The translations under genes were made by a program, and so were the position numbers. The notes below the pieces were generated by a model. The model was given only the letters and a program-made list of their open reading frames with translations. It was not told where the DNA came from and ran no database searches. Positions 1,564-24,265 of a stretch of 29,797 nt of DNA are shown here, piece after piece (the first letter of the stretch is position 1; each line of letters opens with the position of its first letter). The DNA is from a virus: IMG/VR virus record IMGVR_UViG_3300017727_005296, positions 1 through 29,797 of that record; one strand, written 5' to 3'.

Positions 1564-3353
1564 TGTATAAAAAATGTTATCAAGGTGAAAAATTAGGCCC
1601 AAACCATTTTGAAATGCATTTATGGGAAAGCGATGGTAAACATCAAGTTGCAGAATATAAAAACACAGCTTATGTTAACTGCCCCAAAAAAGAACACACT
1701 TTAAAAGGTCTAAATGGTGAATTTGTAAAACCTATTACAAATTGGTATTTTACTAAGAATGCTGAATATAAATATAAAAATACTTTAGGTCTCCATTTTC
1801 ACGATATGCCCCCTTATCAAAAATTTCTTATTGAAAGATATGGAATTAATGATGACCCCTCTACAGGACATAAGGAAATATTTTTTGATATAGAGTGTGA
1901 AATGGGAGGTGCACTTACTGAAGAATATATTGAAGATGCTCCTAAACCAATAACTTCTATTGCTTGGTGGGATAAACAAACAGATCTCTGGGCAATCATT
2001 ATTTTAGATAAAAAAGGTCAATTAAATCATACTAAAGCTAAAAACAAAGAAATAATTCCTGTTAAAACTGAAGTAGAATTATTACAAACTTTTGTAAAAC
2101 GTTTTAAAGAATTAAATCCTGATATTATAGTTGGGTGGAATAGTGATTATTTCGATATTCCTTATCTTTACTACAGAATTGAAAGAGTATTATCTAAAAA
2201 AATTGCTACTAGTTTATCTCCTCTTGGGATTGTTAAAACACGTAAATCTGCTAAATATAAAGATCAAGTTACAGGTGAAGTAAAAGCTAGATGGTATAAA
2301 CAAGATATGTATGTAGATATTATAGGTGTAGAATCTTTAGATTATATGCGCTTACATAAAAAGTTTAGCTTTAGAGATGAACCTTCATATAAACTAGATG
2401 TTATTGGTGAAAAATATACGGGGTTAGCAAAGATTGAATATGATGGTAATTTAGATCGATTGTTTGAAGATGATATTCATAAATTTATTCAATATAATTT
2501 TCGTGATGTCGAAATTCTTAAATTATTAGATGAAAAACTAGACTATTTAGCTCTTACTAAAAACTTATCACATAAAGGTAAACATAACTACAGTGAAGTA
2601 TATGCTAATACTAAAACCCAAGATGGTGCTATCTCAGCTTATTTATTAAGTCAAGGAATTGCTCCTCCTGCTCGTGACCCCAACCCAATTAATAAGAAAA
2701 ATTATGCTGGGGGATATTTATTTTGTCCTACAGCAGGTATTTTTAATTATATGTTTGATGAAGATTTAACATCACTCTACCCATCAATTATTATGTCTCT
2801 TAATATTGGTAAAGAAACTTTAGTAGGAAAAATACTATTTTCGGATGAAAAAATAAATGTTGAAGGAAAAGAAATATTTAATTGTAGATATGCTTTAAAT
2901 GATCTAAAAAAAATGGATCAAAACCTACCAGTTTCGGTTCAAAATGCTAAACGTCAAACTACTGAAATTAAAATTAAAGATTTAATTGAGCTAATTGAAA
3001 GTGAAAATCTAGCAATTTCAGCTAATGGTGTAATGTATAGAACTGATTTTGATTCAGTACTATCTACTATTTTGAATAAATGGTTTCAAGAAAGGCTTGT
3101 ATTTAAAAATAAAATGAAAGAAGCTTATAAAGCTGGTAATAAGGAATTAGGAGAATTAATGCATTTAAAACAACATACAATGAAGATCCTTCTTAATTCA
3201 CTTTACGGTGCTACAGCATTAGGTTCATTTAGGTATGGTAATGTAATCCTAAGTGAAAGTATTACCCTTACAGGTCAACGTATTATCCAAGAATCAGCGG
3301 CTTTTGCCAACAAACATATGAACCAAGTAATGAGAGGAGAAATAGAATTATGA
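1563..3353 (+). CDS. 43A: DNA polymerase B family, N-terminal part (exonuclease, palm motif A, fingers motif B)
   Basis: The first part of a gp43-type replicative polymerase, 596 residues. The 3'-5' exonuclease shows Exo I FFDIECE (D109, E111), Exo II GWNSDYFDIP (about 191-200) and Exo III YNFRDVE (Y311, D315). The polymerase region has motif A DEDLTSLYPSII (D401 and SLYPS) and motif B KILLNSLYGA (K541, Y548, G549). The ORF stops with TGA at 3351-3353, before the motif C aspartates, so alone it lacks one catalytic aspartate set and the thumb. Those lie in the ORF at 4175. The two parts sum to about 904 residues, close to T4 gp43. The stop overlaps the next ATG (ATGA). Activity probably needs assembly with the second part. 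Confidence 0.95.
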   Translation: MYKKCYQGEKLGPNHFEMHLWESDGKHQVAEYKNTAYVNCPKKEHTLKGLNGEFVKPITNWYFTKNAEYKYKNTLGLHFHDMPPYQKFLIERYGINDDPSTGHKEIFFDIECEMGGALTEEYIEDAPKPITSIAWWDKQTDLWAIIILDKKGQLNHTKAKNKEIIPVKTEVELLQTFVKRFKELNPDIIVGWNSDYFDIPYLYYRIERVLSKKIATSLSPLGIVKTRKSAKYKDQVTGEVKARWYKQDMYVDIIGVESLDYMRLHKKFSFRDEPSYKLDVIGEKYTGLAKIEYDGNLDRLFEDDIHKFIQYNFRDVEILKLLDEKLDYLALTKNLSHKGKHNYSEVYANTKTQDGAISAYLLSQGIAPPARDPNPINKKNYAGGYLFCPTAGIFNYMFDEDLTSLYPSIIMSLNIGKETLVGKILFSDEKINVEGKEIFNCRYALNDLKKMDQNLPVSVQNAKRQTTEIKIKDLIELIESENLAISANGVMYRTDFDSVLSTILNKWFQERLVFKNKMKEAYKAGNKELGELMHLKQHTMKILLNSLYGATALGSFRYGNVILSESITLTGQRIIQESAAFANKHMNQVMRGEIEL

Positions 3354-3598
3354 TAAAAAAACAAACACTAAGAAGGGGAGTAGTAATTAAATGTGAAGGT
3401 GAACTACTATCTAAAGAAGAAATTATAGCATTAAGTGAAAATTGGAATGAAAACCAAGAAATGTTTTTTAGAAAAATGCTAAAACAAGGTGGAAGATTTA
3501 CTTTAAAAAAACAAAATTTTCATATCACCACTCCAGACTTAATTTATAATAATAAAGGAGAAATTGAAACCACCTTATCTACTAATGATGAAGAATGA
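3350..3598 (+). CDS. Hypothetical protein, 82 aa, inside the split polymerase
   Basis: Not recognised. A mixed-charge small protein with an LLSKEEIIALSENWNE segment likely to be helical, then basic stretches, then an acidic tail (STNDEE). It has no cysteines for zinc binding except one, no membrane segment and no endonuclease motif (no GIY-YIG, LAGLIDADG or HNH). It overlaps the polymerase N-part by ATGA and overlaps the Smr-like gene by ATGA. It is therefore translated within one coupled run from the first to the second polymerase half. It is the first of three genes that separate motif B from motif C. Confidence 0.7.
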   Translation: MIKKQTLRRGVVIKCEGELLSKEEIIALSENWNENQEMFFRKMLKQGGRFTLKKQNFHITTPDLIYNNKGEIETTLSTNDEE

Positions 3599-3810
3599 GC
3601 ACTTTAGATTTACATGGGGTCAAACATGCTGAGGTAGAAGAAAAGTTAACTAGTTATTTTTTCTGGGAACAACCAGGACATAAACAATATACTATTATTA
3701 CTGGAAATTCTACTAAAATGAAAGGTATAGTATTTGAATGGCTCAATAAATATGAATATAATTATTTTATACCATCCCATAATTTAGGTGAAATACAAGT
3801 AAGCGAATGA
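3595..3810 (+). CDS. Minimal Smr-domain-like protein
   Basis: A 71-residue protein beginning STLDLHGVKHAEVEEKL, the LDLHG signature that opens Smr domains, followed by YTIITGNSTKMK at about 43-54, matching the second Smr hallmark (I-x-G-x-G/S). Smr domains are nucleic-acid binding and often nicking or RNA-cleaving modules, found alone or at the C-terminus of MutS2. This one is shorter than usual (about 80-90 residues), and the second motif has TGNST rather than the common TGKG. It is ATGA-coupled on both sides inside the split polymerase. Nuclease activity is not assured; the fold assignment is the firmer claim. Confidence 0.65.
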   Translation: MSTLDLHGVKHAEVEEKLTSYFFWEQPGHKQYTIITGNSTKMKGIVFEWLNKYEYNYFIPSHNLGEIQVSE

Positions 3811-4178
3811 AAAAACCGGACAATTTTGCAGAAAATAAAGCATTACTTCCTTATGGGGATAGTGTTGCTGCTCCTGTAATTCGTCCTGAAAATATAGATG
3901 ATTGGAAACTTAGAGGAGTTGATAAAGTAAATAAACAATTTAAAACTAAGTTTGATGAATTAAAAGAAGAATTCAAACAACTTTTAAAAGAATATCAATG
4001 GAATGAACTTGTATATCAATCTAAATTTAGTTATGAACCTATAATAGGTGAAACTTATCACCTTTACCTTGGGAAGGATGGAAATCCTTTCTTATCTTTA
4101 ATAGCACCAAATGAATGGAATAAAGAACATATTGGTTCATTTAAATTAAATAGTGAACAAAAGTGGATTAAAGTATGA
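3807..4178 (+). CDS. DUF2452-like protein
   Basis: A 123-residue protein of unknown function. The C-terminal half carries the pattern GETYHLYLGKDGNPFLSLI, then PNEWN, then IGSFKLN and a final KWI. This matches my memory of DUF2452, a family of bacterial (notably Bacteroidetes) and animal proteins with 'G-x-x-Y-x-LY ... S-I-I-x-P-x-EW ... G-x-(Y/F)-KL ... W'. A helical, charged segment (about 40-68) precedes it. The N-terminus contains LLPYGDSVAAPVIRPENI. It is the last of the three genes between the polymerase halves and overlaps the second half by ATGA. Its presence supports a Bacteroidetes connection but does not explain the insertion. Confidence 0.7.
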   Translation: MKKPDNFAENKALLPYGDSVAAPVIRPENIDDWKLRGVDKVNKQFKTKFDELKEEFKQLLKEYQWNELVYQSKFSYEPIIGETYHLYLGKDGNPFLSLIAPNEWNKEHIGSFKLNSEQKWIKV

Positions 4179-5101
4179 AGCAATTAGAAAGTACACCTTG
4201 GTTTATCTGTGATAAAGAAGATGAAAATTACTGCGTTTATGTAGATACAGATTCTAATTATTACAATGCAGAACCTATGCTTAGAAAACTCTATCCCAAC
4301 TTTGATAATATGTCAGAGGAAGAAAGAGATGAAAAGTTAGAGGATATTGCTCTTAAATATCAGGATTTAATTACTAAGTCTTACGATACGTTAGCATTAG
4401 AAGCATTTAATGTCCCTAAACATAGACTTGAGATGAAAACAGAGTGTATGATTCGTGCTGGGTATTTTAGAGCTACCCGTAGGTATGCTCAATGGATTAC
4501 TAAAAAAGAAGGTGTACCAACAGATGATTTAGATATTAAAGGATTAGAATTTATGAAATCCAATTATCCTAAAATATTTGGAGACTTTTTTAAAGATGTG
4601 TTGCAAAGAGTTATTAAAGGAGCTCCCCAAAACGAAATAGATACCCTACTAAAAAACTTTAGGACTAAAATCCTTATAGATACTAATATTACTATATTAG
4701 GTAACCCTACTCGTGTAAAAACATTAGATAAATATTTAGCATCATCTCCTCGTCCCGGAGAAATGTTTTCTTCAATCAACCAAGGTGCTCCTGCTCCTGT
4801 AAAAGCAGCAATTAAATATAATGATTTACTTACATTTTGGAAGTTAGATAAACAACATTCTAAAATTACTCAAGGTGATAAAGTTAAATGGATTTATTTT
4901 AAAGAAAATCCATACAAAATTGATGCACTTGCATTTTTAGATTTTGATCTCCCAGAAAAAATTATTACATTACTGGATAAATATGCTGATAAAAATAGAG
5001 CATTTGAGTCTATTTTAGAAAGTAAATTACAAGGGTTTTATAACGATTTAGAATGGGAATTAAATATGAACCCCTACCGAAATCTAATTTTTAGTTTTTA
5101 A
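4175..5101 (+). CDS. 43B: DNA polymerase B family, C-terminal part (palm motif C and thumb)
   Basis: A 308-residue completion of the gp43 polymerase. Motif C is VYVDTDSNYY with D24 and D26, the aspartates that pair with motif A D401 of the first part. A YFRATRRYAQW segment (about 97-107) corresponds to the KxY-type thumb-palm motif (KAKKRYAL in T4). The last residues, YRNLIFSF, form a hydrophobic tail like the clamp-binding C-terminal peptide of T4 gp43 (DFLFG). Compared with T4, the junction adds roughly 18 residues around the break between the helix ending the first part and the beta hairpin of motif C. The ATG overlaps the DUF2452-like gene's stop. The clamp gene follows one base after the stop. 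Confidence 0.95.
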   Translation: MKQLESTPWFICDKEDENYCVYVDTDSNYYNAEPMLRKLYPNFDNMSEEERDEKLEDIALKYQDLITKSYDTLALEAFNVPKHRLEMKTECMIRAGYFRATRRYAQWITKKEGVPTDDLDIKGLEFMKSNYPKIFGDFFKDVLQRVIKGAPQNEIDTLLKNFRTKILIDTNITILGNPTRVKTLDKYLASSPRPGEMFSSINQGAPAPVKAAIKYNDLLTFWKLDKQHSKITQGDKVKWIYFKENPYKIDALAFLDFDLPEKIITLLDKYADKNRAFESILESKLQGFYNDLEWELNMNPYRNLIFSF

Positions 5102-5932: not shown

Positions 5933-6349
5933 ATGAGTACATTAGAACACTTAGAACGTTCACCGTTCGACATCCTATTTAGGAATTTCTTCAATTCTGA
6001 AGATCAATTCGCTCCGGCGTTAAATTCAAAACAACCACATCCTTTAAACATTTATTACAACGACGAAGGTTTACACTTTGAAGTCGCTTGTACAGGACTT
6101 ACTAAAGAAGATCTTGATATTAGTGTTGAAGGAGATTTACTTAAAATTAGTTATGAAAAACCAAAAGAAGATATAGATCTTTCAGGTTATATTTATCATG
6201 GTTTATCAAAAAAATCATTTGATTTAGGATATAAAATCTCTCCAAAATACAACTTAACTAAAATAAGTGCGGAAATGGAGAATGGGTTATTAAACCTTTT
6301 AATCCCAATTTCAGAAGAATCAAAACCAAAAGCAATAAAAATCAAATAA
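5933..6349 (+). CDS. hsp20: Small heat shock protein, Hsp20/alpha-crystallin family
   Basis: A 138-residue ATP-independent holdase. Features are an N-terminal SPFDILFRNFF segment, an alpha-crystallin domain from about residue 37 (LNIYYNDEGLHFEVACTGL, then EDLDISVEGDLLKISYEKP), and a C-terminal GLLNLLIPISEE followed by a short basic tail. The usual terminal I-x-I oligomerisation motif is represented by AIKIK. Hsp20 genes are frequent in T4-like phages of cyanobacteria, where the role is thought to be folding or protecting phage proteins. Here it stands between the clamp and the GroES/GroEL pair, forming a chaperone block inside the replication cluster. It has its own upstream gap with a possible promoter. 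Confidence 0.9.
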   Translation: MSTLEHLERSPFDILFRNFFNSEDQFAPALNSKQPHPLNIYYNDEGLHFEVACTGLTKEDLDISVEGDLLKISYEKPKEDIDLSGYIYHGLSKKSFDLGYKISPKYNLTKISAEMENGLLNLLIPISEESKPKAIKIK

Positions 6350-6704: not shown

Positions 6705-8612
<1,908 letters not shown>

Positions 8613-8613
<1 letters not shown>

Positions 8614-10610: not shown

Positions 10611-11285
10611 ATGAATTATTTAAATACCCCCAATGGATGGGAAATAGTTAAAGAAGAAGGCTTTAATTGGGGCTCTATAGAAAATATTAACGCTAGACGT
10701 CAGGTATACCAAGAAGTTTGGGTAAATAAATTATATGAAAAAATATTTGAGGTTGAAGAAGGAGATATTGTTATTGATTTAGGTGCTGGTATTGGTGATT
10801 TTACTTGGAGTATTAGAAATAATAAACCCCAAGCTATATACTGTTTTGAACCCGGTGCAGATTCTCAAAAATCTCTTCCTCTCTTAAAAGAGAATACATC
10901 TCAAATTCCAAATTGTTTTATTATTGAAAAATTTATGTCTAGTATTGATAATAAAAATAATATTACTTGGGATACTTTTTTAAAATCTAATCATTTAAAT
11001 AAAATTGATTTTGTAAAAACTGATTGTGAAGGAGGAGAATATGAAATTTTTAAACCTGAAAATATTTTTTGGGTAAAAGAAAATATAAAAAAAATAGTAG
11101 GTGAATGGCATCTATCAACACCAGAATTAAAATCAAAATTTAGGATTTTTAGAGATACATATTTAAGATTATTTCCTAATCATGAGGTTAATTCGGTTAA
11201 TGGTGTAGACATTAAATGGGATTTATGGAATGAACATTTTATTGAATATTATAACGAAGTAATAATTTATATAGATAATAGATAA
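10611..11285 (+). CDS. FkbM-family methyltransferase (first copy)
   Basis: A 224-residue SAM-dependent methyltransferase. Motif I is IVIDLGAGIGDFTWSI (about residues 53-68), the acidic motif II is IYCFEPGAD, and the FkbM-type motif is DFVKTDCEGGEYEIF. FkbM enzymes usually O-methylate sugars or related small molecules, which suits the glycan genes that follow. It is the first gene after the replication block and marks the change of theme. The 9-base gap before it has no promoter motif. The stop overlaps the next start. Substrate unknown. A second FkbM protein with an extra N-terminal domain is at 17725. Confidence 0.85.
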   Translation: MNYLNTPNGWEIVKEEGFNWGSIENINARRQVYQEVWVNKLYEKIFEVEEGDIVIDLGAGIGDFTWSIRNNKPQAIYCFEPGADSQKSLPLLKENTSQIPNCFIIEKFMSSIDNKNNITWDTFLKSNHLNKIDFVKTDCEGGEYEIFKPENIFWVKENIKKIVGEWHLSTPELKSKFRIFRDTYLRLFPNHEVNSVNGVDIKWDLWNEHFIEYYNEVIIYIDNR

Positions 11286-11620
11286 TGATGAAATCAAGTG
11301 AAATTATTAAAAAAGAATATCCTCATATTTACAATGGTTATATGGATATCATGGAAGAGCAGCTGGAGTTATTCAGTAAAAAACATCTGGACTATGGTAT
11401 GGCTAATATCAGTGCTGGGACTTTACTTTCTACTAAAGAAGAAAGGGCTTTTGCTCTTACAGGACTTTGGTATAGAATAAGTGATAAAATTAGTAGATGG
11501 AAAAATTTATTAATTACTAATAAAGTTATTAATAACGAACCTCTAACAGATACTTACCAAGATATTGTAAATTATGGTATCATTGCTCAATTAGTTGAGC
11601 GTGGTTTATGGAAAAAATAA
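11285..11620 (+). CDS. DUF1599-like (nucleotide-modification-associated domain) protein
   Basis: A 111-residue protein with KKHLDYGMANISAGTLLST, then LTGLWYRISDKISRW and TDTYQDIVNYGIIAQLV. This combination (HxDYG, LW-x-R-x-SDK-x-x-R, D-x-x-x-D-x-x-x-Y) fits DUF1599, a small helical family recurrent in phages and linked by comparative genomics to modified-nucleotide pathways; the general shape recalls MazG-like all-alpha pyrophosphatases. It starts in the last codons of the FkbM gene, and its 3' end overlaps the HAD-nucleotidyltransferase fusion by 13 bases. The exact reaction is not known. Confidence 0.7.
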   Translation: MMKSSEIIKKEYPHIYNGYMDIMEEQLELFSKKHLDYGMANISAGTLLSTKEERAFALTGLWYRISDKISRWKNLLITNKVINNEPLTDTYQDIVNYGIIAQLVERGLWKK

Positions 11621-12975
11621 AATTAGTTATATTTGATTTAGATGGTGTTTTAGTTGAAGCTAAAACCATCCATTATGATGCTCTAAACCAGGCGTTAGGT
11701 AAAGACTATACTATTAGTTGGAATGAACATCTATCAGTTTATGATGGGTTAAAGACTAACCAAAAATTAGAAATGCTTACTGAACGTAAGGGTTTACCTA
11801 CAGAATTACATTCTAAAATTTGGGAAAGTAAACAAAAATATACACTTCAAATGCTTAAAGAACTTCAGCCGGATGAAACATTACAATCTGTAATGAATTC
11901 TCTAGTTGAGTGTGGTTATAAAATTGCTGTATGTTCTAATTCAATACGAAAAACTGTATTAACAGTTCTATCTAAATTAGGGATAATGGAGTTTATGGAT
12001 TTAGTTATATCTAATGAAGATGTAAAAAATTCCAAACCTCACCCTGAAATGTACTGGAAAGCAATATCAATGATGAGTTGTTTACCTGAGGAGACATTAA
12101 TCGTAGAAGATTCACCTTATGGTTTGTTAGCAGCATCTCGTTCTAAATCTCATGTATTAAGAGTTACTAAACCTCAGGATGTTACTTATGATAATATTTT
12201 TAATAAATTAACAGAAATAGAAAAAGGCCAAATTATGAAATCCCCAGCATGGAGAGATAATAAACTAAATGTATTAATTCCAATGGCGGGTGCTGGTTCT
12301 AGATTTACGCAAGCAGGGTATACCTTCCCAAAACCTCTTATTGATGTTCAAGGAAAACCAATGATCCAAGTAGTAGCTGAAAATTTAAATATTAAAGCTA
12401 ACTTTATTTACATAGTACAAAAAGAACATAGATTAAAATATAATTTAGATACTTTACTTAATTTAGTTACACCAAATTGTAAAGTTGTAGAAGTTGATGA
12501 ATTAACTGAGGGAGCAGCGTGTACCGCATTATTAGCTAAAAATTTTATTGATAACAATTCACCCTTATTCTTTGCTAACTCAGATCAATTTGTAGAATGG
12601 GATTCAAATGAATTTTTTTATAAAATGAATGAAACTGAAGTTGATGGGGGAATTGTTACATTTAAATCAACTCATCCAAAATGGTCATTTGCCAAAACTG
12701 ATGATCAAGGATTTGTAACAGAAGTTGCAGAAAAAAACCCTATATCTGATTTAGCAACAGTAGGTTTTTATTATTGGAAACATGGTTCTGATTTTGTTAA
12801 ATATGCTGAACAAATGATTAATAATAATATTAGAGTAAATGGTGAATTTTACGTTTGCCCCGTATATAATGAAGCTATTCAAGACAACAAAAAAATTATA
12901 ACCTTTAATATTCCCAAAATGCGGGGATTAGGTACTCCTGAAGATTTAAAGTATTTTTTAGAAAATTATAAATAA
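11608..12975 (+). CDS. HAD phosphatase - sugar nucleotidyltransferase fusion
   Basis: A 455-residue two-domain enzyme. Residues about 1-205 are a HAD-superfamily phosphatase of the beta-phosphoglucomutase/GPH type. They show D10 and D12 in VIFDLDGVLVE, the motif II serine in CSNS (about 109-112), motif III lysine in NSKPHPEMYW, and motif IV IVEDSPYG. Residues about 219-455 are a GT-A-fold nucleotidyltransferase with VLIPMAGAGSRF, FPKPLIDVQGKPM, GAACTALLA and a metal-binding NSDQ (D326). This could dephosphorylate a sugar or polyol phosphate and form an NDP-sugar, or act on consecutive intermediates. A cupin gene and a fusion of reversed domain order follow. Substrate cannot be read from sequence. 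Confidence 0.88.
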   Translation: MEKIKLVIFDLDGVLVEAKTIHYDALNQALGKDYTISWNEHLSVYDGLKTNQKLEMLTERKGLPTELHSKIWESKQKYTLQMLKELQPDETLQSVMNSLVECGYKIAVCSNSIRKTVLTVLSKLGIMEFMDLVISNEDVKNSKPHPEMYWKAISMMSCLPEETLIVEDSPYGLLAASRSKSHVLRVTKPQDVTYDNIFNKLTEIEKGQIMKSPAWRDNKLNVLIPMAGAGSRFTQAGYTFPKPLIDVQGKPMIQVVAENLNIKANFIYIVQKEHRLKYNLDTLLNLVTPNCKVVEVDELTEGAACTALLAKNFIDNNSPLFFANSDQFVEWDSNEFFYKMNETEVDGGIVTFKSTHPKWSFAKTDDQGFVTEVAEKNPISDLATVGFYYWKHGSDFVKYAEQMINNNIRVNGEFYVCPVYNEAIQDNKKIITFNIPKMRGLGTPEDLKYFLENYK

Positions 12976-13298
12976 TGGATATTTTAAAACTAAAAGATAT
13001 GGTTGGTGGTTGGTTTGTAGGTGATTTTGAACCTACAGCTTATAAAACTAAAGATTTTGAAGTAAGTTATAAAACCCACCCTAAAGGAGAAGTATGGGAT
13101 AATCATTATCATAAAATAGCTACAGAAATTAACTATCTAGTTCGCGGTAATATGAATCTAAGTGGGACTCACCTAAAAGAAGGTGATATATTCATACTAC
13201 ACCCAGAGGAAATAGCTGTTCCTGAATTCTTAACAGATTGTGAAATAGTCTGTGTTAAAACAGCAAGTGTAAAAGGAGATAAATATATAGTAGAATGA
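12975..13298 (+). CDS. Cupin-domain protein
   Basis: A 107-residue single cupin. Motif 1 is represented by GEVWDNHYHKIATEINYLVRG (metal ligands His36-type H-x-H in NHYHK and the glutamate in TEINY) and motif 2 by LKEGDIFILHPEEIAVPEFL. Such small cupins act as sugar-nucleotide or sugar isomerases/epimerases, or as sensors. Placed between two HAD/nucleotidyltransferase fusions and overlapping both (A of TAATGG, and ATGA), it probably acts on the same metabolite. Motif 2 retains H in ILHPEE but not the usual G-x5-P-x-G-x2-H spacing exactly, so catalytic competence is uncertain. Confidence 0.8.
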   Translation: MDILKLKDMVGGWFVGDFEPTAYKTKDFEVSYKTHPKGEVWDNHYHKIATEINYLVRGNMNLSGTHLKEGDIFILHPEEIAVPEFLTDCEIVCVKTASVKGDKYIVE

Positions 13299-14380
13299 AT
13301 ATAGTTATACCAATGGCGGGTTTAGGAACTCGATTTTTTAATGAAGGTTTTACATTACCTAAACCATTAATTGAAACTAATGGTAAAACACTTATTGAAC
13401 ATTCAATTTCAACATTAGGGGTTCAAGGAAAATATATTTTTATAACTCGTAAATATGATAACCCTGAGCATAATGTACTTTTAACTAAACGTTTAAATGA
13501 AATTCAACCTAATAGTATTGAAATCCAATTAAACGAACCTACTAAGGGTGCTACTGAAACTGCTTTAGCAGCTAAACAATATATTAATAATAATGAACCT
13601 CTTATTATTACTAATTGTGACCAAATTACAGATTGGGATGCTTCTAAATTTAATGAATTTATTTCTAACCCTACTATTGAAGGAGTAATAGTTACCTACC
13701 CTTCTACTAATCCTAAAAATAGTTTTGCTATAGTAGAAGATGATCAAGTTGTAAAACTAGTTGAAAAGAAAGCAGTATCAGATATAGCTTTAATTGGAGT
13801 CCACTATTGGAGAGAAGGGTATATGTTTGTAGAAACAGCTGAAATGCTCTTAGGGGATTTTGAAGAAGAAGGCAGACCTGAATGTTATATATCAGAAACA
13901 TATAACTACTTACTCTATAAAGGAGCTAATATTAAAAACTATCATATCTCAGCTAATGAATATATTCCATTAGGTACTCCCTATGATCTAAAAATTTATG
14001 AGGGTAAAGTAAAAGAATTCCATACTGAAAAACCTAAAACTATATTCTGTGATATAGATGGTACCTTAGTAAAACACGCTCATAGATTTAGTGATTTAAA
14101 AGATACTAAACCTGTATTACTTCCAGATGTTAGAGAGAAATTTAATCAATGGGATTCTCAAGGCCATAAAATTATTTTGTGTACTGCTCGTAAAGAATCT
14201 GCTCGTGAAATGACTGAATCCCATTTACAAATGTTAGGGTTATGTTGGGACATATTAATTATGGGAGTTACTAGTGGACAACGCGTTTTAATTAACGATA
14301 AATTAAATGTAGCACATACTGATAGAGCAATAGGAATCAACGTTATAACCAACGAAGGTTTTAAAAATATAGAATTATGA
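13295..14380 (+). CDS. Sugar nucleotidyltransferase - HAD phosphatase fusion (reverse order)
   Basis: A 361-residue protein with the domains of the 11608 gene in opposite order. Residues about 1-235 are a nucleotidyltransferase: IVIPMAGLGTRF, LPKPLIETNGKTLIEHS, GATETALAAKQYI and TNCDQITDWD. Residues about 248-361 are a compact HAD phosphatase with FCDIDGTLVKH (D253, D255), the motif II threonine in LCTARKE, and VLINDKLN near the end. The HAD part is smaller than in the first fusion and resembles capsule-locus HADs rather than the beta-PGM type, so the two fusions probably arose separately. The nucleotidyltransferase halves are visibly related to each other. ATGA overlaps tie it to the cupin and to the GDPD-like gene. 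Confidence 0.88.
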   Translation: MNIVIPMAGLGTRFFNEGFTLPKPLIETNGKTLIEHSISTLGVQGKYIFITRKYDNPEHNVLLTKRLNEIQPNSIEIQLNEPTKGATETALAAKQYINNNEPLIITNCDQITDWDASKFNEFISNPTIEGVIVTYPSTNPKNSFAIVEDDQVVKLVEKKAVSDIALIGVHYWREGYMFVETAEMLLGDFEEEGRPECYISETYNYLLYKGANIKNYHISANEYIPLGTPYDLKIYEGKVKEFHTEKPKTIFCDIDGTLVKHAHRFSDLKDTKPVLLPDVREKFNQWDSQGHKIILCTARKESAREMTESHLQMLGLCWDILIMGVTSGQRVLINDKLNVAHTDRAIGINVITNEGFKNIEL

Positions 14381-14817
14381 AATTAATATCACATAGAGGA
14401 AACCTAGAAGGTCCTAACCCAGAAAGAGAAAACCACCCAGATTATATTTATGAAGCTATCCAAGCTGGGTATGACGTAGAAATTGATATTTGGTTTGTAG
14501 ATGGGAAATTTAAATTGGGTCATGATGAACCTCAATATGATTTTCCTTTTGATTTATTTAGTAATTTTTATACTAAACTCTGGATTCATTGTAAAAACTT
14601 AGAATCTCTTTCTCAATTAAATAACTTAGATAGTAATGGCTCTAAATTAAATTATTTTTTTCATGAAGGTGACCTTGGAGTTTTAACTTCAAAAGGGTAT
14701 ATTTGGTCAACAAACCAATGTGAACGAGCGGTTTTAGTAATGCCTGAAACCTTTAATCAAGAACCAAATGAAAAAACATTTGGGGTTTGTAGCGATTATG
14801 TAGTAAACTATAAATAA
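14377..14817 (+). CDS. Minimal GDPD/PLC-like phosphodiesterase
   Basis: A 146-residue protein with the glycerophosphodiester phosphodiesterase signature. SHRGN gives H6 and R7. VEIDIW supplies the metal ligands E35 and D37. LGHDEP gives the second catalytic histidine H49. Later strands WIHCKN and YFFHEGD fit a short TIM-barrel order. Normal GDPD domains are about 240-250 residues, so this is a much reduced version. All four catalytic positions remain, so it may be active. It directly follows the nucleotidyltransferase-HAD fusion (ATGA). That suggests a glycerol-phosphate or phosphodiester-linked glycan, as an inference. It overlaps the next gene by one base. Confidence 0.75.
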   Translation: MKLISHRGNLEGPNPERENHPDYIYEAIQAGYDVEIDIWFVDGKFKLGHDEPQYDFPFDLFSNFYTKLWIHCKNLESLSQLNNLDSNGSKLNYFFHEGDLGVLTSKGYIWSTNQCERAVLVMPETFNQEPNEKTFGVCSDYVVNYK

Positions 14818-15428
14818 TGCCTATAAACCAAAAATATAATTTACTATTTATCCATATTCCTAAAAATGCTGGTACAACTATTGAAAATATTTTCTCTATG
14901 TATAGTAATCCTAGCAGCTTATGGTCAGGAAGTGAATTAGTTTTAGATGAGGGTAATTTTGCCCCCCAACATTTAAATTATAGTTTACTTAATAAGTATT
15001 ATACTAATATAGACTTTTCTAAAATGATTAAGTTTACCTTTGTTAGAAATCCTTATTCTAGAACTATTTCTTTATTTAATTGGAATTTAAAACAGAATTA
15101 TTATAAACCTAAATTTGATAATAAATTTACTAATAGAGAATTTGAAAATTTTTTAGTAAGTTTTATCTCAAAACTAGACTCATCACATAAATTACCTCAA
15201 AGTTTTTATTTTGATTGTGATTATGACTTTATAGGTAAAGTAGAAAACTTTAAAGAAGATTTTACTAACTTTCTAACTAAATATAATATTGCTATAAAAT
15301 ATAAAGGCCAACATGATAATAAAACTAATAGTAACCAAATTTTAAATAATTTATCTTCGAAAAATATTAATCTAATTAATACGTTATATGAAGAAGATTT
15401 TAAAAGGTTTAATTACGATATGATATGA
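14817..15428 (+). CDS. Sulfotransferase family protein (first)
   Basis: A 203-residue P-loop sulfotransferase of the carbohydrate type. The 5'-phosphosulfate loop is FIHIPKNAGTTIENIF (K16, T20, T21), and the 3'-phosphate motif is FTFVRNPYSRTISLFNW (R77, S81). A late VENFKEDFTNFL segment matches the family pattern in which the dimer or substrate region follows. It would transfer sulfate from PAPS to a sugar hydroxyl. No PAPS-synthesis gene is in the window, so the host must supply PAPS. It lies between the GDPD-like gene and a GT2 glycosyltransferase with a 4-base overlap to the latter. Confidence 0.8.
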   Translation: MPINQKYNLLFIHIPKNAGTTIENIFSMYSNPSSLWSGSELVLDEGNFAPQHLNYSLLNKYYTNIDFSKMIKFTFVRNPYSRTISLFNWNLKQNYYKPKFDNKFTNREFENFLVSFISKLDSSHKLPQSFYFDCDYDFIGKVENFKEDFTNFLTKYNIAIKYKGQHDNKTNSNQILNNLSSKNINLINTLYEEDFKRFNYDMI

Positions 15429-16207
15429 AAATAGCAGTTGTAACAGCTACTTATCAACGAGGTGACGGTAATACCCCATTAGTATTAACTCGAGCTATTG
15501 AATCTTTAAAAAAACAAGCCCACACTGATTGGAAGTTTTTCCTTATAGGAGATGCTTATGCAGATCAAAATGAATTTAATTCTTTTTCTAATCTTCTACC
15601 TTCTAATAAAATTTATACAGAAAACCTCCCAGTAAGTATAGAACGTGAAAAATACCCTCCAGGCACTGATAGATGGCATGTTAGTGGAATTACCCCTGTA
15701 AACATAGGTATAGAACGTGCTTTAGAAGAAGGTTTTGATTATATAGCTCTATTAGATCATGATGATCTTTGGTATCCTGACCATTTACAATTAATAAATG
15801 AAGGAATTAAAAAAACTAAATCCCCATTTATCTTTACTAGAGGATTTTATGAAGTTTCTAATGGAATAAGTGTAGGTATACCTTACCATGGGTATGAATC
15901 TGAAAAATTCGAACAATTACGTGTTAATGTAGATAATCCTATTAAATTAAATTATGGTTTTAACGGGTATGCTTGCTTTCCTTATGAATGTATTTTCCTT
16001 AAAACCTCAGTTTGTTTAGATTGTAGGTTAATTAAGTTAAGAATGAGAGATTGTTTAGAAGAAACTGGAAAAAGTTCTGTGGGAGATGCTGATTGGTGGT
16101 TAAGAATTAGAGAAGAAATGATAGAAGGTAAATATAAACCTGCTTTATTTATAGACCATATTACGTGTGCTAATATAGATGAAGGGTATAGTAAAACTAA
16201 CACATAA
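15425..16207 (+). CDS. Glycosyltransferase family 2 (GT-A fold)
   Basis: A 260-residue inverting-type GT2. The N-terminal strand and loop VVTATYQRGDG, the RAIESLKKQAHTDWKFFLIG segment, and the metal- and nucleotide-binding DHDDLWYPDHL (DxD within LLDHDD) are typical. A catalytic-base region is represented by GDADWWLRIREEM near the C-terminus. The protein has no membrane segment. It is part of the tightly overlapping run 10611-17675. Donor and acceptor cannot be predicted. Confidence 0.85.
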   Translation: MKIAVVTATYQRGDGNTPLVLTRAIESLKKQAHTDWKFFLIGDAYADQNEFNSFSNLLPSNKIYTENLPVSIEREKYPPGTDRWHVSGITPVNIGIERALEEGFDYIALLDHDDLWYPDHLQLINEGIKKTKSPFIFTRGFYEVSNGISVGIPYHGYESEKFEQLRVNVDNPIKLNYGFNGYACFPYECIFLKTSVCLDCRLIKLRMRDCLEETGKSSVGDADWWLRIREEMIEGKYKPALFIDHITCANIDEGYSKTNT

Positions 16208-17724: not shown

Positions 17725-18561
17725 ATGATTAATATTCAATATAATCACCCAAATATAAGAGTAGAAACTAAACAAGTTTCTATGCTACATAATTTACCTT
17801 TAACTTTAAATGTTAAATCTCATGTTAGTAAAGAAACTACATGGAACTGTCAATTGGGGGACTACAGCTGGGCAACTTTTTCTAATGATTCTATTTTTGA
17901 TATTGAAATAAAGGATTCTAAAGGTAAAATTGTTATTAATAGGGAATTTAATATTTTAGAAGATGGAAGTTATTTAGACAAAGCACTACAGATGTACTGC
18001 CAAAACTTAAATAACCCCCAAGGTTTAGCAATAGGCTCTCATGATGGTGAGTTTGGAGAATGGGTTTTACCTACTTTAGGTAATTTTACTAAAACAACTT
18101 TAGTAGAAGCATCAACCCCTCAATTTAAAAAACTTAAAAAAAATTACCAAAATCTCTCTAACGTAAATTTGATTCAAAATCTAGTTACTACAGATGGTTC
18201 TAAAGTAGAATTTTTTGAAGGAGGTAAGGGTTATACTAATTCTGTTAAAGAAAATGTAATTAGAAGTTGGGAAAAAGAAGAAATTAATTCCAATTTACGT
18301 GACTCTATTTCAATTAATGATTTAATAAATCAAATTACCCCAAATAAAAAATTAGATTGGCTACATTTAGATATTGAAGGGTATGATGCTGAAATACTTA
18401 AAGCAATAAACGTGGAGTTATTACCTAATTTTATTATATTTGAACATAACAACTTATCTAATAAAGATAAAACAAGTATAGAAAAATATTTTACTGATCT
18501 AAATTATACTCTTTATAACGAAGACCCAGTGTCTTATTTAGTAATTAAAGATAATGGCTAA
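17725..18561 (+). CDS. FkbM-family methyltransferase with N-terminal beta domain (second copy)
   Basis: A 278-residue protein. Residues about 1-85 form a polar, beta-rich domain with FDIEIKDSKGKIVINREF. Then comes a methyltransferase fold: GLAIGSHDGEFGEWVLP in the motif I position, TTLVEASTPQF (motif II), and the FkbM motif WLHLDIEGYDAEILKAI. The N-terminal domain is absent from the 10611 protein. Similar strand-rich, non-catalytic segments occur in the C-terminal third of 16207 and 27448, suggesting a shared carbohydrate-binding or assembly module, as an inference. It is led by its own promoter and overlaps the nuclease gene by 8 bases. Substrate probably a sugar hydroxyl. Confidence 0.8.
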   Translation: MINIQYNHPNIRVETKQVSMLHNLPLTLNVKSHVSKETTWNCQLGDYSWATFSNDSIFDIEIKDSKGKIVINREFNILEDGSYLDKALQMYCQNLNNPQGLAIGSHDGEFGEWVLPTLGNFTKTTLVEASTPQFKKLKKNYQNLSNVNLIQNLVTTDGSKVEFFEGGKGYTNSVKENVIRSWEKEEINSNLRDSISINDLINQITPNKKLDWLHLDIEGYDAEILKAINVELLPNFIIFEHNNLSNKDKTSIEKYFTDLNYTLYNEDPVSYLVIKDNG

Positions 18562-19726: not shown

Positions 19727-21154
19727 ATGAAAGAAGGTTATATTCCTAAAGAGCAACGGAAAAATATTTTGTTGCTTACTGATGATATCAGATTCCCATC
19801 AGGTGTAGGCAATGTAGGTAAAGAAATAGTTTTACATACATCCCACCGTTATAATTGGTTTAACTTAGGGGCAGCAATGAATCACCCTGATAAAGGTAAA
19901 ATAATTGATATTTCGGAAGAAACTAATAAATTAGCAGGAATTAAAGATGCTAGTGTTAAAATTCAACCAAATGATGGTTATGGGGATCCTAAAATTTTAC
20001 GTAACTTAAGAAAGCAACATAAAATTGATGCTATATTTTTAATTACAGATCCACGTTACTTTGAGTGGTTGTTCCAAATTGAAAATGAGGTTAGAAATGA
20101 AATTCCTATTATCTATTTAAATATTTGGGATGATTTACCTGCTCCTATGTATAATAAGGGATTTTATGAATCCGTTGATACACTATTAGGTATTTCTAAG
20201 CAAACAGTTAACATCAATAAAATGGTTTTGGGGGATAAAGCTAAAACTAAAATTATTGATTATGTACCTCATGGTATGAATACCGAAGTTTTTCATCCTA
20301 TTATAGTAGAAGATTTAGAATTTACTACATTTAAAAAACAATTAAATGTTGAAGATAAAGATTTTATTTTATTCTTTAATTCTAGAAACATCAGACGTAA
20401 AAACATCCCAGATACAATGTTATCTTGGAAGTATTTTTTAGATGAATTACCTAAAGAAAAAGCAGATAAATGTGTATTCATACTTCATACAGAATTAGTT
20501 AGTGATCATGGTACAGATCTTTCTGCAATAGCTAACTTAATTTTTGGAGAGAATAGCCCTCATATTAGATTTTCTACTAATAAATTATCAGCTCAACATC
20601 TAAATTACCTATATAATTTAGCAGATGCTCAGATTTTATTAACCTCAAACGAAGGTTGGGGTTTATCTCTTACTGAAGCCTTACTAACAGGCACTCCTAT
20701 AATTGCTAATGTAACAGGTGGTATGCAAGATCAAATGAGATTTGAAGATAAAAATGGAAATTGGATTGACTTTGATTCTAATTTTCCTTCTAATCATAGA
20801 GGTACTTATAAAAAACATGGTAAATGGGCTTATCCTGTTTACCCCTCATCACGTTCTTTAAAAGGTTCTCCTAAAACTCCTTATATTTGGGATGATACTT
20901 GTGATCCCGAAGATGCTTCTAAACAAATTATGAAGCTTTATAAAATGTCCCCTGAACAACGAAAAAAATCAGGGATGAAAGGTTATAAATGGGCAATAGG
21001 AGATGAAGCAGGTTTTACTGCTAAACATCAAGCTCAACGTGTAATCAAAAGTATTGATAAAACATTTGAAGATTTCCAACCAAGAGAAAAATTTGAATTT
21101 ATTAATACTAATGAGTATAAAATAGAAACTGTTCCACATAAATTATTATATTAA
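19727..21154 (+). CDS. Glycosyltransferase family 4-type (GT-B fold), 475 aa
   Basis: A retaining GT-B glycosyltransferase. The N-terminal domain begins ILLLTDDIRFPSGVGNVG with the glycine-rich donor/acceptor loop. The C-terminal domain has FFNSRNIRRKNIPDTM (domain-start strand and basic residues for phosphate binding) and SNEGWGLSLTEALLTGTP, the E-x7-E motif that holds the nucleotide sugar. HGMNTEVF (about 184-191) is the standard linker motif (HGVD). It is longer than the usual 380-420 residues because of an insertion around 345-385 (HRGTYKKHGKWAYPVYPSS). The stop overlaps the next GT gene by one base. Substrates unknown. Confidence 0.87.
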   Translation: MKEGYIPKEQRKNILLLTDDIRFPSGVGNVGKEIVLHTSHRYNWFNLGAAMNHPDKGKIIDISEETNKLAGIKDASVKIQPNDGYGDPKILRNLRKQHKIDAIFLITDPRYFEWLFQIENEVRNEIPIIYLNIWDDLPAPMYNKGFYESVDTLLGISKQTVNINKMVLGDKAKTKIIDYVPHGMNTEVFHPIIVEDLEFTTFKKQLNVEDKDFILFFNSRNIRRKNIPDTMLSWKYFLDELPKEKADKCVFILHTELVSDHGTDLSAIANLIFGENSPHIRFSTNKLSAQHLNYLYNLADAQILLTSNEGWGLSLTEALLTGTPIIANVTGGMQDQMRFEDKNGNWIDFDSNFPSNHRGTYKKHGKWAYPVYPSSRSLKGSPKTPYIWDDTCDPEDASKQIMKLYKMSPEQRKKSGMKGYKWAIGDEAGFTAKHQAQRVIKSIDKTFEDFQPREKFEFINTNEYKIETVPHKLLY

Positions 21155-22413
21155 TGAAACCCTTATTTTTAATTAGTTGTCCTTTTGATACTTACTCTGG
21201 TTATGGAGCTCGTAGTAGAGATGTTGTTAAAGCTATTATTAAAACAGATAAATATAAAGTTAAATTAATTTCCCAACCTTGGGGAAACACTAGATTTGGA
21301 TTTTGCGATGATCATCCAGAATGGGAATTTTTAAATAACCATATTTTAAATGAAGAATTAATCGATAAACCTGAATTTTGGGCTCAGATAACCGTACCTA
21401 ATGAATTTCAACCTATGGGAAAATTTAATATTGGAATTACAGCAGGTATTGAAACTACATTAGCAAATGGAGCATGGGTTGAAGGTATGAACAGAATGGA
21501 TTTAAATTTGGTATCATCAGAACACTCTAAAACCTCATTTAAGAATGCCGTTTGGGAAAAGAAAGATAAAGCAGGTAAAACTATAAGTTCTATTCGCCTT
21601 GAAAAACCTATTGAAGTGTTATTTGAAGGAGTTAATTTAGACACCTACTTCCCAGATAATAAACCATGTATGATTGATTTTGATATTAAGGAATCATTTG
21701 CTTTCTTATTTGTAGGTCATTGGTTACAAGGGGAAATAGGCCAAGATAGAAAAAATGTTGGGTTATTAGTTAAGGCCTTTTTAGAGACTTTTAAAAATAA
21801 ATCTAAACAACCAGCATTAATTCTTAAAACATCGGGTGCTAATAGTTCTTACATGGATAAAAATGAGATTCTTAGAAAAATTCATGTAATTAAACAGAGT
21901 TGTAAGGGAAATCTTCCTAACATATATTTACTTCACGGTGATTTTACAGATAAAGAAATGAATTCTCTTTATAATCATTCTAAAGTTAAAGCTATGGTTA
22001 GTTTAACTAAAGGTGAGGGATTCGGTAGACCTTTATTAGAATTTACTTTAACTAAAAAACCATTAATTGCAACAAAATGGAGTGGTCATATGGATTTTCT
22101 TAATCCTAAATTTACTACATTAATTAATGGTAAACTAGAAAATGTCCATCCTAGTGCTGCTAACCCAATGTTATTAAAAGAAAGCCAATGGTTCTCCCCA
22201 GACCACAAGGATATTTCAAAATCATTAAAATCTGTATTTGAAAATTATAAAAAATATTCTGAACTAGCAAAACGTCAGGCCCATTATAGTAAAACAAATT
22301 TTGATTGGGAAAGTATGAAAGATAAATTAGATAATCTTCTTACTGCTTTTGCCCCAGAATTCCCAAAACAAATCGAATTAGCAATCCCAGAATTAACCTT
22401 ACCAACATTATGA
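21154..22413 (+). CDS. Glycosyltransferase family 4-type (GT-B fold), 419 aa
   Basis: The second GT-B enzyme, TAATG-coupled to the first. The N-terminus LFLISCPFDTYSGYGARSRD has the acceptor-side glycine loop. VLFEGVNLDTYFPDN is the linker motif. FVGHWLQGEIGQDRKNVGLL starts the second domain. LTKGEGFGRPLLEFTLTKKP is the E-x7-E nucleotide-sugar site. It ends with a proline-rich tail (LAIPELTLPTL). Its relation to the 19727 protein is at family level only, so the pair probably adds different sugars. It overlaps the zinc-ribbon gene by ATGA. Confidence 0.87.
   Translation: MKPLFLISCPFDTYSGYGARSRDVVKAIIKTDKYKVKLISQPWGNTRFGFCDDHPEWEFLNNHILNEELIDKPEFWAQITVPNEFQPMGKFNIGITAGIETTLANGAWVEGMNRMDLNLVSSEHSKTSFKNAVWEKKDKAGKTISSIRLEKPIEVLFEGVNLDTYFPDNKPCMIDFDIKESFAFLFVGHWLQGEIGQDRKNVGLLVKAFLETFKNKSKQPALILKTSGANSSYMDKNEILRKIHVIKQSCKGNLPNIYLLHGDFTDKEMNSLYNHSKVKAMVSLTKGEGFGRPLLEFTLTKKPLIATKWSGHMDFLNPKFTTLINGKLENVHPSAANPMLLKESQWFSPDHKDISKSLKSVFENYKKYSELAKRQAHYSKTNFDWESMKDKLDNLLTAFAPEFPKQIELAIPELTLPTL
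21899..21931 (+). promoter_or_regulatory. Possible internal promoter inside the second GT4 gene
   Basis: GTTG at 21899-21902, exactly 20 bases, then TATATTTAC at 21923-21931. The spacing fits the other copies but TTCG before and AAATAA after are absent, and the position is within a coding region. It could serve 22410 onward. Chance in AT-rich coding sequence is a serious alternative. Confidence 0.2.
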
Positions 22414-22865
22414 GTGTAGATAATTTAACAATATGTGATAGATGTGGAAGTGACGCATGCTATGTACAAGAAGTAAATAATGAGATTAAAAACTATATGT
22501 GTTATGGTTGTGGTTTCATTACAAATTCATTAATGAAAAAAGATGAACAATTTTTTGAAGAACAATTTGCTCTTTTACCTAAACTTTATAAAGAAATATC
22601 AGGTGAAGATGAAAAAACAGGTTTAATTTGGATGCCCAATACTGTAAATATCCCAAATAAGGGAATGGTATTTGCTGAGGGTCAAAGTGCTGAAAAGTGG
22701 ATGTGGTCCGCTGTAAAAGCAGTTCCTATGCCTAAAGAAGAGAAAGAATCATTTAAAGCTAAAGGTAAAGATTATGAATTTAAAATGGATATGACTACTA
22801 TAAAATATTACCCTGAAAGTGATTTTATGGATGCTTTAGAATATATTGGTGTTTTTGAAAATTAA
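22410..22865 (+). CDS. Zinc-ribbon protein, 151 aa
   Basis: The N-terminus carries paired cysteines: C9 and C12 in ICDRCGSDACY and C31 and C34 in MCYGCGF, a rubredoxin-like zinc ribbon. The remainder is a soluble domain with GLIWMPNTVNIPNKGMVFAEG and a tryptophan-rich AEKWMWSAVKAVP segment, ending in DFMDALEYIGVFEN. Unnamed proteins of this design occur in marine phages in my recollection, but the function is unknown. It lies between GT4 and GT2 genes in one overlapping run. Nucleic-acid binding or protein-protein contact is possible. Confidence 0.7.
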   Translation: MSVDNLTICDRCGSDACYVQEVNNEIKNYMCYGCGFITNSLMKKDEQFFEEQFALLPKLYKEISGEDEKTGLIWMPNTVNIPNKGMVFAEGQSAEKWMWSAVKAVPMPKEEKESFKAKGKDYEFKMDMTTIKYYPESDFMDALEYIGVFEN

Positions 22866-22868
22866 AAT

Positions 22869-23495
22869 ATGAAATTAAGTTATGCAATCCCTGTTTGTAA
22901 TGAATTAGTAGAAATTCAACATTTAATTAAATTTTTACTAGATAACAAACGCCCCGAAGATGAAATTGTAGTATTATATGATTCAAAAAATGGAGATCCT
23001 GGAGTAGAAACTTATTTACGTAAAATGAATGTTGAAAGGACCTTATTTAGATGGAAACCTTTTAAATTCAATGGCAATTTTTCAGACATGAAAAATCGTT
23101 TAAATGGAATGTGTGAAGGCGATTACATATTCCAGATTGATGCTGACGAAATGCTTAATGAATACATGATAAAGATAATCCCTCAAGTGTTAGAGATTAA
23201 TCAAGGGGTAGATTTAATGAGAGTTCCACGTATTAATAAAGTAGAAGGATTGACTGAGGCCCATATTCAAAAATGGGGTTGGAAAGTTGATGAAAAAGGT
23301 AGAGTAAATTGGCCTGATATGCAGTGGAGATTATATAGAAATGATCCACGTATTAGATGGCATGGTGAGGTACATGAAAAAATTATTGGGCATGCTACAC
23401 ATGCTGTTTTACCTATAAAAGAAGATTTTGCTTTAATTCATAATAAAACAATCGAACGCCAAGAAAAACAAAATGCTTACTACGATACTTTATGA
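22869..23495 (+). CDS. Glycosyltransferase family 2, 208 aa
   Basis: A short GT-A enzyme. SYAIPVCNELVEIQHLIKFL is the N-terminal strand-helix. EIVVLYDSKNGD is the second strand, and YIFQIDADEMLNEYM contains the DxD metal site (IDADE). RNDPRIRWHGEVHEKI is typical of the acceptor-side motif in a GT2 subgroup that includes lipopolysaccharide core transferases (waaE-like 'R-W-x-G-x-x-H-E'). Resemblance to WaaE/KdtX-like beta-1,4-glucosyltransferases is suggestive only. Its last codons overlap the following GT2 gene by ATGA. Confidence 0.85.
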   Translation: MKLSYAIPVCNELVEIQHLIKFLLDNKRPEDEIVVLYDSKNGDPGVETYLRKMNVERTLFRWKPFKFNGNFSDMKNRLNGMCEGDYIFQIDADEMLNEYMIKIIPQVLEINQGVDLMRVPRINKVEGLTEAHIQKWGWKVDEKGRVNWPDMQWRLYRNDPRIRWHGEVHEKIIGHATHAVLPIKEDFALIHNKTIERQEKQNAYYDTL

Positions 23496-24265
23496 TTTCA
23501 GTTATAATCCCAACATATAAAGAACCAGATGTACTTGATATTTGTTTAAATTCAATATTTAAGGGTCAAGATGGTGATAATGAAATTATTGTGGTAGTTG
23601 ATGGATTTAAAGATTTAAACCAACAAGTATTAGATAAATACCCTAAAACTAAAATAGTAAATTTTAATGATAATAAGGGTGCTATTACATCCACAAATTG
23701 GGGAGTTTATAATGCATCTAATGATTTTATTTTAATAGTAAATGATGATAATGTTTTTCCTGAACATTGGGATACAAAATTAAAACCATATTGTCAAAAA
23801 GGTAAAGTAATTACAATCAACCAGATTGAAGCTCAACCTTCAATGTTTAAACAAACCCATATTAAAAATTTAGGGACTCCAGAATCTTTCAATTTAAAAA
23901 CTTTCTGGGAATACGAAGCATCACTTCCTATCCCACCTCATGAAAAATCAGGATCACAATGGCCTTTCTTAATGTATAAACCTGATTATATGGCTGTTGG
24001 GGGGTTAGATGTTTATTATCCTTCACCTCATGTTGTTGATTGGGATTTTATGTTAAAGTGTGAATATGTAGGTTTTGAAATGGTTAGAGTTTATGATTTA
24101 CATTTATATCATTTTGGTAGTATAGCAACTAGAAGAGATCCTTTAATGAATCAAATTAGTAGTGAAAAAGAAAAACAAGCACATTACTTTTTTTCAAATA
24201 AATGGGGTCAAACAATAGAACATGATCCACAAACCAATTCTAAATTATTAACTAAATTTAAATGA
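23492..24265 (+). CDS. Glycosyltransferase family 2, 257 aa
   Basis: A canonical GT2 enzyme. MISVIIPTYKEPDVLDICL and EIIVVVDGFKD are the first strands. NKGAITSTNWGVYNASNDFI is the usual 'N-x-G-x(3-6)-N-x-G' region. LIVNDDNVFPEHW is the metal-binding acidic pair. VDWDFMLKCEYVG supplies the later ED/D acidic motif. It is not clearly a duplicate of the adjacent 22869 gene. ATGA overlaps on both sides suggest co-translation. It is the last glycosyltransferase in this run. Confidence 0.87.
   Translation: MISVIIPTYKEPDVLDICLNSIFKGQDGDNEIIVVVDGFKDLNQQVLDKYPKTKIVNFNDNKGAITSTNWGVYNASNDFILIVNDDNVFPEHWDTKLKPYCQKGKVITINQIEAQPSMFKQTHIKNLGTPESFNLKTFWEYEASLPIPPHEKSGSQWPFLMYKPDYMAVGGLDVYYPSPHVVDWDFMLKCEYVGFEMVRVYDLHLYHFGSIATRRDPLMNQISSEKEKQAHYFFSNKWGQTIEHDPQTNSKLLTKFK

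Follow-up and report, generated by a model that had tools for sequence, protein, structure and literature searches.

Two HAD/nucleotidyltransferase fusions and a cupin overlap in a phage contig

We analysed a 29,797-nucleotide stretch of viral DNA (IMG/VR virus record IMGVR_UViG_3300017727_005296, positions 1 to 29,797; hereafter the window), a 29.8 kb contig of a marine T4-like phage with replication genes, among them a DNA polymerase in two open reading frames (ORFs) and a clamp loader, and a gene for GroEL. Within it, three consecutive genes on the plus strand encode a 455-amino-acid protein in which a HAD domain precedes a nucleotidyltransferase (NTase) domain (HAD-NTase, 11608..12975), a small cupin of 107 amino acids (12975..13298) and a 361-amino-acid protein with the reverse domain order (NTase-HAD, 13295..14380). 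This mirrored arrangement, put forward in the original prediction, was confirmed by the ORFs, the domain matches and the junctions, with one base shared between HAD-NTase and cupin (TAATG) and four between cupin and NTase-HAD (ATGA). The genes upstream and downstream of the three also overlap.

In HAD-NTase, residues 1-205 (~11608-12222) form a HAD domain of subfamily IA, beta-phosphoglucomutase-like and with a cap region, and residues 220-455 (~12265-12972) form an RmlA-like NTase. The corresponding Pfam matches, HAD_2 at residues 7-184 (E 3e-31) and NTP_transferase at 226-393 (E 8e-11), both pass gathering thresholds (PF13419, 109.3 versus 23.8 bits; PF00483, 42.4 versus 21.2 bits), and the HAD catalytic residues D10, D12, K143, E167 and D168, as well as the NTase motif residues GxGxRF, K242, D326 and E375-K376, are invariant among relatives. 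A quick PF00483 search of the virus record gave no match, reflecting the limited sensitivity of that search rather than absence of the domain, which the full Pfam scan recovered.

In NTase-HAD, an NTase-like domain (residues 1-236, ~13295-14002; rmlA_long E 2e-13, under its cut-off) is followed by a short, capless, PNKP-like HAD (residues 245-361, ~14027-14377), which matches HAD_PNKP over residues 247-312, passes its gathering threshold (PF25109, 30.9 versus 27.6 bits) and has DxD, T, R and D motif residues that are invariant among relatives. PF00483 was not listed for the NTase half, which also fell 0.2 bits short of PF12804; it is nevertheless homologous to the NTase half of HAD-NTase, with 38% identity over 230 residues and an alignment score of 414, where 200 shuffles gave at most 60. 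The two HAD halves, in contrast, do not align better than shuffled sequences (41 versus a maximum of 45). The earlier statement that the HADs belong to different types while the NTases resemble each other is therefore correct and not a product of chance. Motif residues are invariant among relatives in all four HAD and NTase domains, and the NTase motifs GxGxR, PK, metal-binding Asp and EK are intact in 100% of 19 HAD-NTase and 8 NTase-HAD rows. Identification of the NTases as RmlA, GlmU, MurU or GalU was rejected on NCBIfam equivalog cut-offs (best scores 41-50 versus 250-658 bits), as was identification of NTase-HAD as an EcbF-BcbF capsule phosphatase, since TIGR01689 was not listed at E 0.01.

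The cupin scores below gathering in Pfam cupin models (Cupin_7, 14.9 versus 27 bits), matches phrog_24762 (E 3e-34) and, as a profile, PDB cupins (E ~1e-4). It carries an HYH...E metal motif that conforms to cupin motif 1, G(X)5HXH(X)3-4E(X)6G, with H44, H46 and E51 present in 18/18 rows. Directly downstream, at 14377..14817 on the plus strand, lies a gene for a small protein of 146 amino acids that resembles glycerophosphodiester phosphodiesterases (GDPD-like). No Pfam GDPD model matched it, but the catalytic residues HR..EN..E.D..HD..H.K are invariant in 22/22 rows and its profile matches the PDB GDPD structure 7e0v (E 4e-5). This gene, which had been overlooked in the original prediction, is a fourth member of the set.

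Phage gene neighbourhoods resolve into two modules

We then counted the neighbours of these genes across viral loci, using domain profiles built from phage sequences, which may overlook bacterial members that have diverged. Since many bacterial loci lie on contigs of metagenome-assembled genomes (MAGs) and some viral contigs are short, the number of loci lacking a gene is in each case an upper bound. The NTase-HAD gene directly adjoins a cupin gene in 53 of 58 distinct viral cases (47 with the cupin after it and 6 with the cupin before), and a GDPD-like gene lies on the same stretch in 48 of the 58. HAD-NTase was also present at only seven of these loci, in three gene orders. Conversely, a GDPD-like gene was found within 3 kb of 51/80 distinct viral HAD-NTase genes, directly after it in 22, while a cupin lay within that distance in 17/80 and NTase-HAD in 7/80; the GDPD-like gene is thus linked to the set at least as tightly as the cupin is to HAD-NTase. 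Among 63 distinct viral cupins, 59 have an NTase of the same family within 3 kb.

From these counts we conclude that the real units are NTase-HAD with cupin and GDPD-like gene, and HAD-NTase with GDPD-like gene, and that the mirror-image triad of the window is two modules side by side. An obligate triad is ruled out, and the search for the same triad in relatives, proposed with the original prediction, turned up the window's order only in near-identical contigs and in one relative at 79% identity (L014).

Cyanophage sugar islands offer a close parallel, with homologous fusions and cupins in the glycan islands of T4-like phages. HAD-NTase proteins ~59% identical to that of the window occur in S-CAM9, S-PRM1, S-8S55 and B23. 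Three phages, Bellamy, SynMITS9220M01 and L338, have NTases of this family with RpiB as fusion partner and a cupin alongside (L001:7835-8989, L002:7835-8989 and L338:10241-11392), and in S-SKS1 the NTase is joined to RibB (DHBP synthase; L006:8001-9425); these partner domains differ from those of the window. A further fusion joins the NTase to a GT61 glycosyltransferase (L046:4356-6011). Unlike in the window, NTase-HAD with cupin and HAD-NTase occur together in none of the cyanophage isolates examined. As a separate observation, two S-SM2 proteins of ~105 amino acids annotated as 'phosphoheptose isomerase' (L005:11306-11617 and L005:12947-13276) match the profile of the C-terminal HAD weakly; we read them as small HADs, and the annotation is probably wrong.

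A bacterial cassette contains the same protein families

Bacterial and archaeal genomes were scanned with the NTase alone, and the best 80 loci were kept on NTase similarity only. A HAD of the same profile lay within ~8 kb in 69/80 loci and a cupin in 52/80. All three were present in 49 loci, in each case (49/49) on one strand and with a median span of 2.5 kb. The commonest order was HAD-NTase-cupin-NTase (25 loci), with a rotation of it in a further 12, and a GDPD-like gene of ~208 amino acids often stood beside these genes. Phyla with the cassette include Pseudomonadota, Bacteroidota, Bacillota, cyanobacteria, Campylobacterota and Spirochaetota. Its cupin is rare: across 299 genomes of one phylum the only strong match came from the cassette genome itself. 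Of six cassette genomes tested, five hold a single copy, so that chance co-occurrence is negligible. In addition, bacterial fusions link the families directly: a HAD+NTase fusion is present in SAR11 (Pelagibacter) and a separate one in a Rickettsiales MAG, two bacteria have HAD+cupin, and one has NTase+NTase. Together these data provide strong evidence for a functional link that makes HAD, NTase and cupin one set. The earlier proposal that the three window genes form a single route therefore holds as far as the families belong together, but not as an obligate triad.

Representative cassettes, with the order GDPD-like - HAD - NTase_a - cupin - NTase_b, lie in loci of the lipopolysaccharide or capsule type in Pseudomonas peli (L152), Flavobacterium stagni (L168), Pseudanabaena (L166) and Campylobacter jejuni GP013 (L138). 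They share with the window the four protein families, the tight same-strand linkage and the order HAD-NTase-cupin-NTase, and differ in that the phage genes are fused and the second phage NTase has kept its catalytic motif and is joined to a different HAD. NTase_a, the earlier of the two NTases in the bacterial cassette, forms one clade (support 100/100) and, unlike the phage NTases, lacks the catalytic motif: the GxGxR arginine is lost in 40/40 and the terminal Asp in ~97% of sequences (40 loci within L130-L209; examples at L152:10011-10736, L138:2666-3388 and L168:6944-7666). This degenerate NTase stays next to an intact paralogue and is probably, as judged from its sequence, a conserved non-catalytic partner. 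A SnoaL-like protein appears to be a further cassette member, encoded by a separate gene in C. jejuni GP013 (L138:3318-3716; PF12680 E 3e-14) and, on our reading of the sequence, apparently fused to NTase_a in Thalassolituus (L143:10032-11108).

In the literature searched, we found no published description of a named GDPD-HAD-NTase-cupin cassette, of the degenerate NTase partner or of the fused phage forms; the individual families and phage sugar genes as such are already known.

The two fusions have separate ancestries

In an NTase tree of 59 rows (support given as bootstrap/SH-aLRT), the NTases of phage NTase-HAD form a deep clade with a protein from an alphaproteobacterial single-cell genome (100/96), whereas those of phage HAD-NTase fall together with SAR11 proteins (98/93). 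A tree constrained to unite both phage groups in one clade was rejected (approximately unbiased test, p-AU 1.6e-5), while a clade of phage, SAR11 and alphaproteobacterial NTases set against all other bacteria was not (p-AU 0.14). These results contradict the suggestion that the two fusions go back to duplication of a single activating enzyme. Although 38% identity between the NTase halves would suit a gene copied inside this phage and joined to two different HADs, the SAR11 HAD-NTases are closer to the phage HAD-NTase than the other fusion is, and phages with one fusion only are the majority; the chance of such a local event is now so slight that we treat it as excluded. An older split inside the clade of phage, SAR11 and alphaproteobacterial proteins is possible.

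The SAR11 loci (L130, L140, L142 and L145) hold a pair of GDPD-like and HAD-NTase genes, the fusion being the same as in the phage and 48-52% identical to it. Here the GDPD-like gene precedes HAD-NTase, whereas in the phage it follows, and neither a cupin nor NTase-HAD was seen beside it, unlike in the window. Full-length HAD-NTase was found in 3/118 sampled genomes of the Pelagibacter family, and is therefore an accessory rather than a core gene. No NTase-HAD fusion was among the bacterial matches listed.

Genomic context in the window

The four genes are surrounded on the plus strand by FkbM-type methyltransferases at 10611..11285 (PF05050 E 1e-8) and 17725..18561 (PF05050 E 4e-6), a sulfotransferase at 14817..15428 (PF03567 E 2e-16) and a family 2 glycosyltransferase (GT2) at 15425..16207 (PF00535 E 2e-6). 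Further glycan genes follow at 19727..24265, comprising two phrog_2170 glycosyltransferases, one GT2 and one GtrB-like O-antigen conversion match. Because of these neighbours we regard the region as a surface-glycan tailoring island.

Outside the island, the T4-type DNA polymerase is split between an ORF at 1563-3353, covering positions 20-566 of the phrog_262 profile, and one at 4175-5101, covering positions 565-842, with a DUF2452 ORF (3807-4178) between them; an Rfam intron search of 3000-5000 gave no match. The GroEL gene (6988-8613), whose closest relative is that of Flavobacterium phage immuto (60.8%), lies just downstream of a gene for an HSP20-like chaperone (5933-6349). At the start of the contig (250-1563), a GTP cyclohydrolase is encoded beside a PRA-PH/MazG-like pyrophosphohydrolase.

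Proposed function and alternative explanations

The sequences themselves show which domains are present, that their catalytic motifs are intact, how the genes are linked and fused, what their ancestry is and that they lie in a glycan island; the chemical steps, nucleotide, product and envelope target are inferred. Most likely the cassette produces a sugar or polyol, activated with a nucleotide, with which the host envelope is modified. We propose that the phage carries, in shortened and partly fused form, a nucleotide-activation cassette of bacterial surface-polysaccharide loci, and put the probability of this origin, jointly with the working set out here, at roughly two in three. Acting on a small sugar or polyol phosphate, the HAD domain would remove or move a phosphate; the cupin would isomerise or epimerise an intermediate, and the NTase domain would join the resulting phosphate to a nucleoside triphosphate, with CTP as a first guess, to give an activated donor. 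The GDPD-like protein may hydrolyse a phosphodiester and so supply or recycle a phosphorylated building block. The glycosyltransferases, methyltransferases and sulfotransferase of the island would then use and decorate the unit, altering the envelope glycan of the infected host and serving, for example, the exclusion of other phages. Within the window, HAD-NTase with the GDPD-like protein would represent a SAR11-type module, and NTase-HAD with cupin and GDPD-like protein a phage-type module; probably each makes its own donor, or both supply a single pathway, one from either end.

Known systems provide partial precedents. The isomerase of the ManC/AlgA type has a cupin fold. In type II mannose-6-phosphate isomerases (ManC/AlgA, which are also GDP-mannose pyrophosphorylases), a sugar-phosphate isomerase domain is combined with one for sugar-nucleotide pyrophosphorylase (PMC9602691), as we envisage for the window, where, however, the cupin is small, encoded separately rather than in one chain with the NTase and without a match to that family, and the HAD and GDPD-like proteins are additional. 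For the capsule of C. jejuni HS5.18 (HS:5), the NTase of the CDP-6-D-glucitol pathway loads CTP onto fructose-6-phosphate, a ketose-6-phosphate (PMC10918830), a precedent for the loading of a non-anomeric sugar phosphate and a weak hint for the window; that pathway uses a PF01128 NTase and a PF01370 reductase, and neither model was matched by the proteins scanned here. The RpiB and RibB partners of the NTase family are sugar-phosphate enzymes that both use ribulose-5-phosphate, weakly suggesting that the donor is perhaps a C4/C5 ketose or polyol. Modification of the host O-chain has already been proposed for pelagimyophage glycosyltransferases (PMC7029224). That the genes belong to an undescribed pathway, widespread in bacteria and present in phages as well, which makes an unrecorded nucleotide-activated donor with a pair of active and degenerate NTases and was compressed in phages into fusion enzymes that alter host envelope glycans, is a possible but unlikely extension.

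Three observations weigh against the proposed function. The cupin has no conserved histidine of motif 2 after G70/P77 in the alignment, so its catalysis is uncertain; no cupin was detected within 3 kb in 63/80 viral HAD-NTase loci, so it is not needed by every version; and no kinase or oxidoreductase that would complete a textbook pathway was found beside the genes.

The main rival is that the HAD of HAD-NTase is a phosphomutase, which would convert a sugar-6-phosphate to the sugar-1-phosphate that the NTase turns into an NDP-sugar, a two-step fusion with no dephosphorylation. The best solved relatives of this HAD are indeed beta-phosphoglucomutases, the top NCBIfam models are TIGR02009 and TIGR01990, and DxD together with H22, which aligns with H20 of beta-phosphoglucomutase, is kept in 20/20 rows. 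All scores, however, remain under the cut-offs of these models (TIGR01990, 91.4 versus 189.4 bits; TIGR02009, 101.8 versus 153.35 bits), and the scores of mutases are matched by those of phosphatases such as TM_1254. Mutase activity in beta-phosphoglucomutase is set by the cap residues K45 and R49, which on our reading of the alignment are replaced by D46 and T50, invariant in the family; a mutase is therefore unlikely here, if still a serious contender. The PNKP-like nature of the other HAD, for which HAD_PNKP is the best Pfam model and Pnkp1 and polynucleotide kinase are the PDB matches, could instead indicate a phosphatase or repair-like role of HAD and NTase on nucleic acids or nucleotides. 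Its partner is an RmlA/MobA-like NTase, however, a kinase domain is lacking, and the genes nearby are glycan genes, as are the relatives. Small HADs also stand beside NTases in polysaccharide loci, as in C. jejuni, where L138:4827-5222 meets the EcbF-BcbF capsule phosphatase model TIGR01689. We consider a repair-like role very improbable.

Compatible with the cassette interpretation, and a sub-hypothesis of it, is the idea that the two fusions make unrelated donors and are adjacent by accident, the units being cupin with NTase-HAD and HAD-NTase with GDPD. The rarity and varied order of joint loci, the frequency of each pair alone and the different lineages of the NTases favour it, while the direct adjacency and overlap of the fusions in the window and its near relatives, and the two NTases regularly held by unfused bacterial cassettes (though one is a degenerate paralogue), speak against it; we judge its chances to be only slightly short of even.

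Taken together, phage glycan islands are large and variable, with most of their genes lacking annotation, and one of their recurrent parts proves to be a bacterial cassette, spread over several phyla, in fused form. By domain fusion, phages equip one NTase family with alternative partners, namely two kinds of HAD, RpiB, RibB and GT61. The HAD, NTase, cupin and GDPD-like proteins form a small set to assay, and identification of their product would make the surface change during infection testable.

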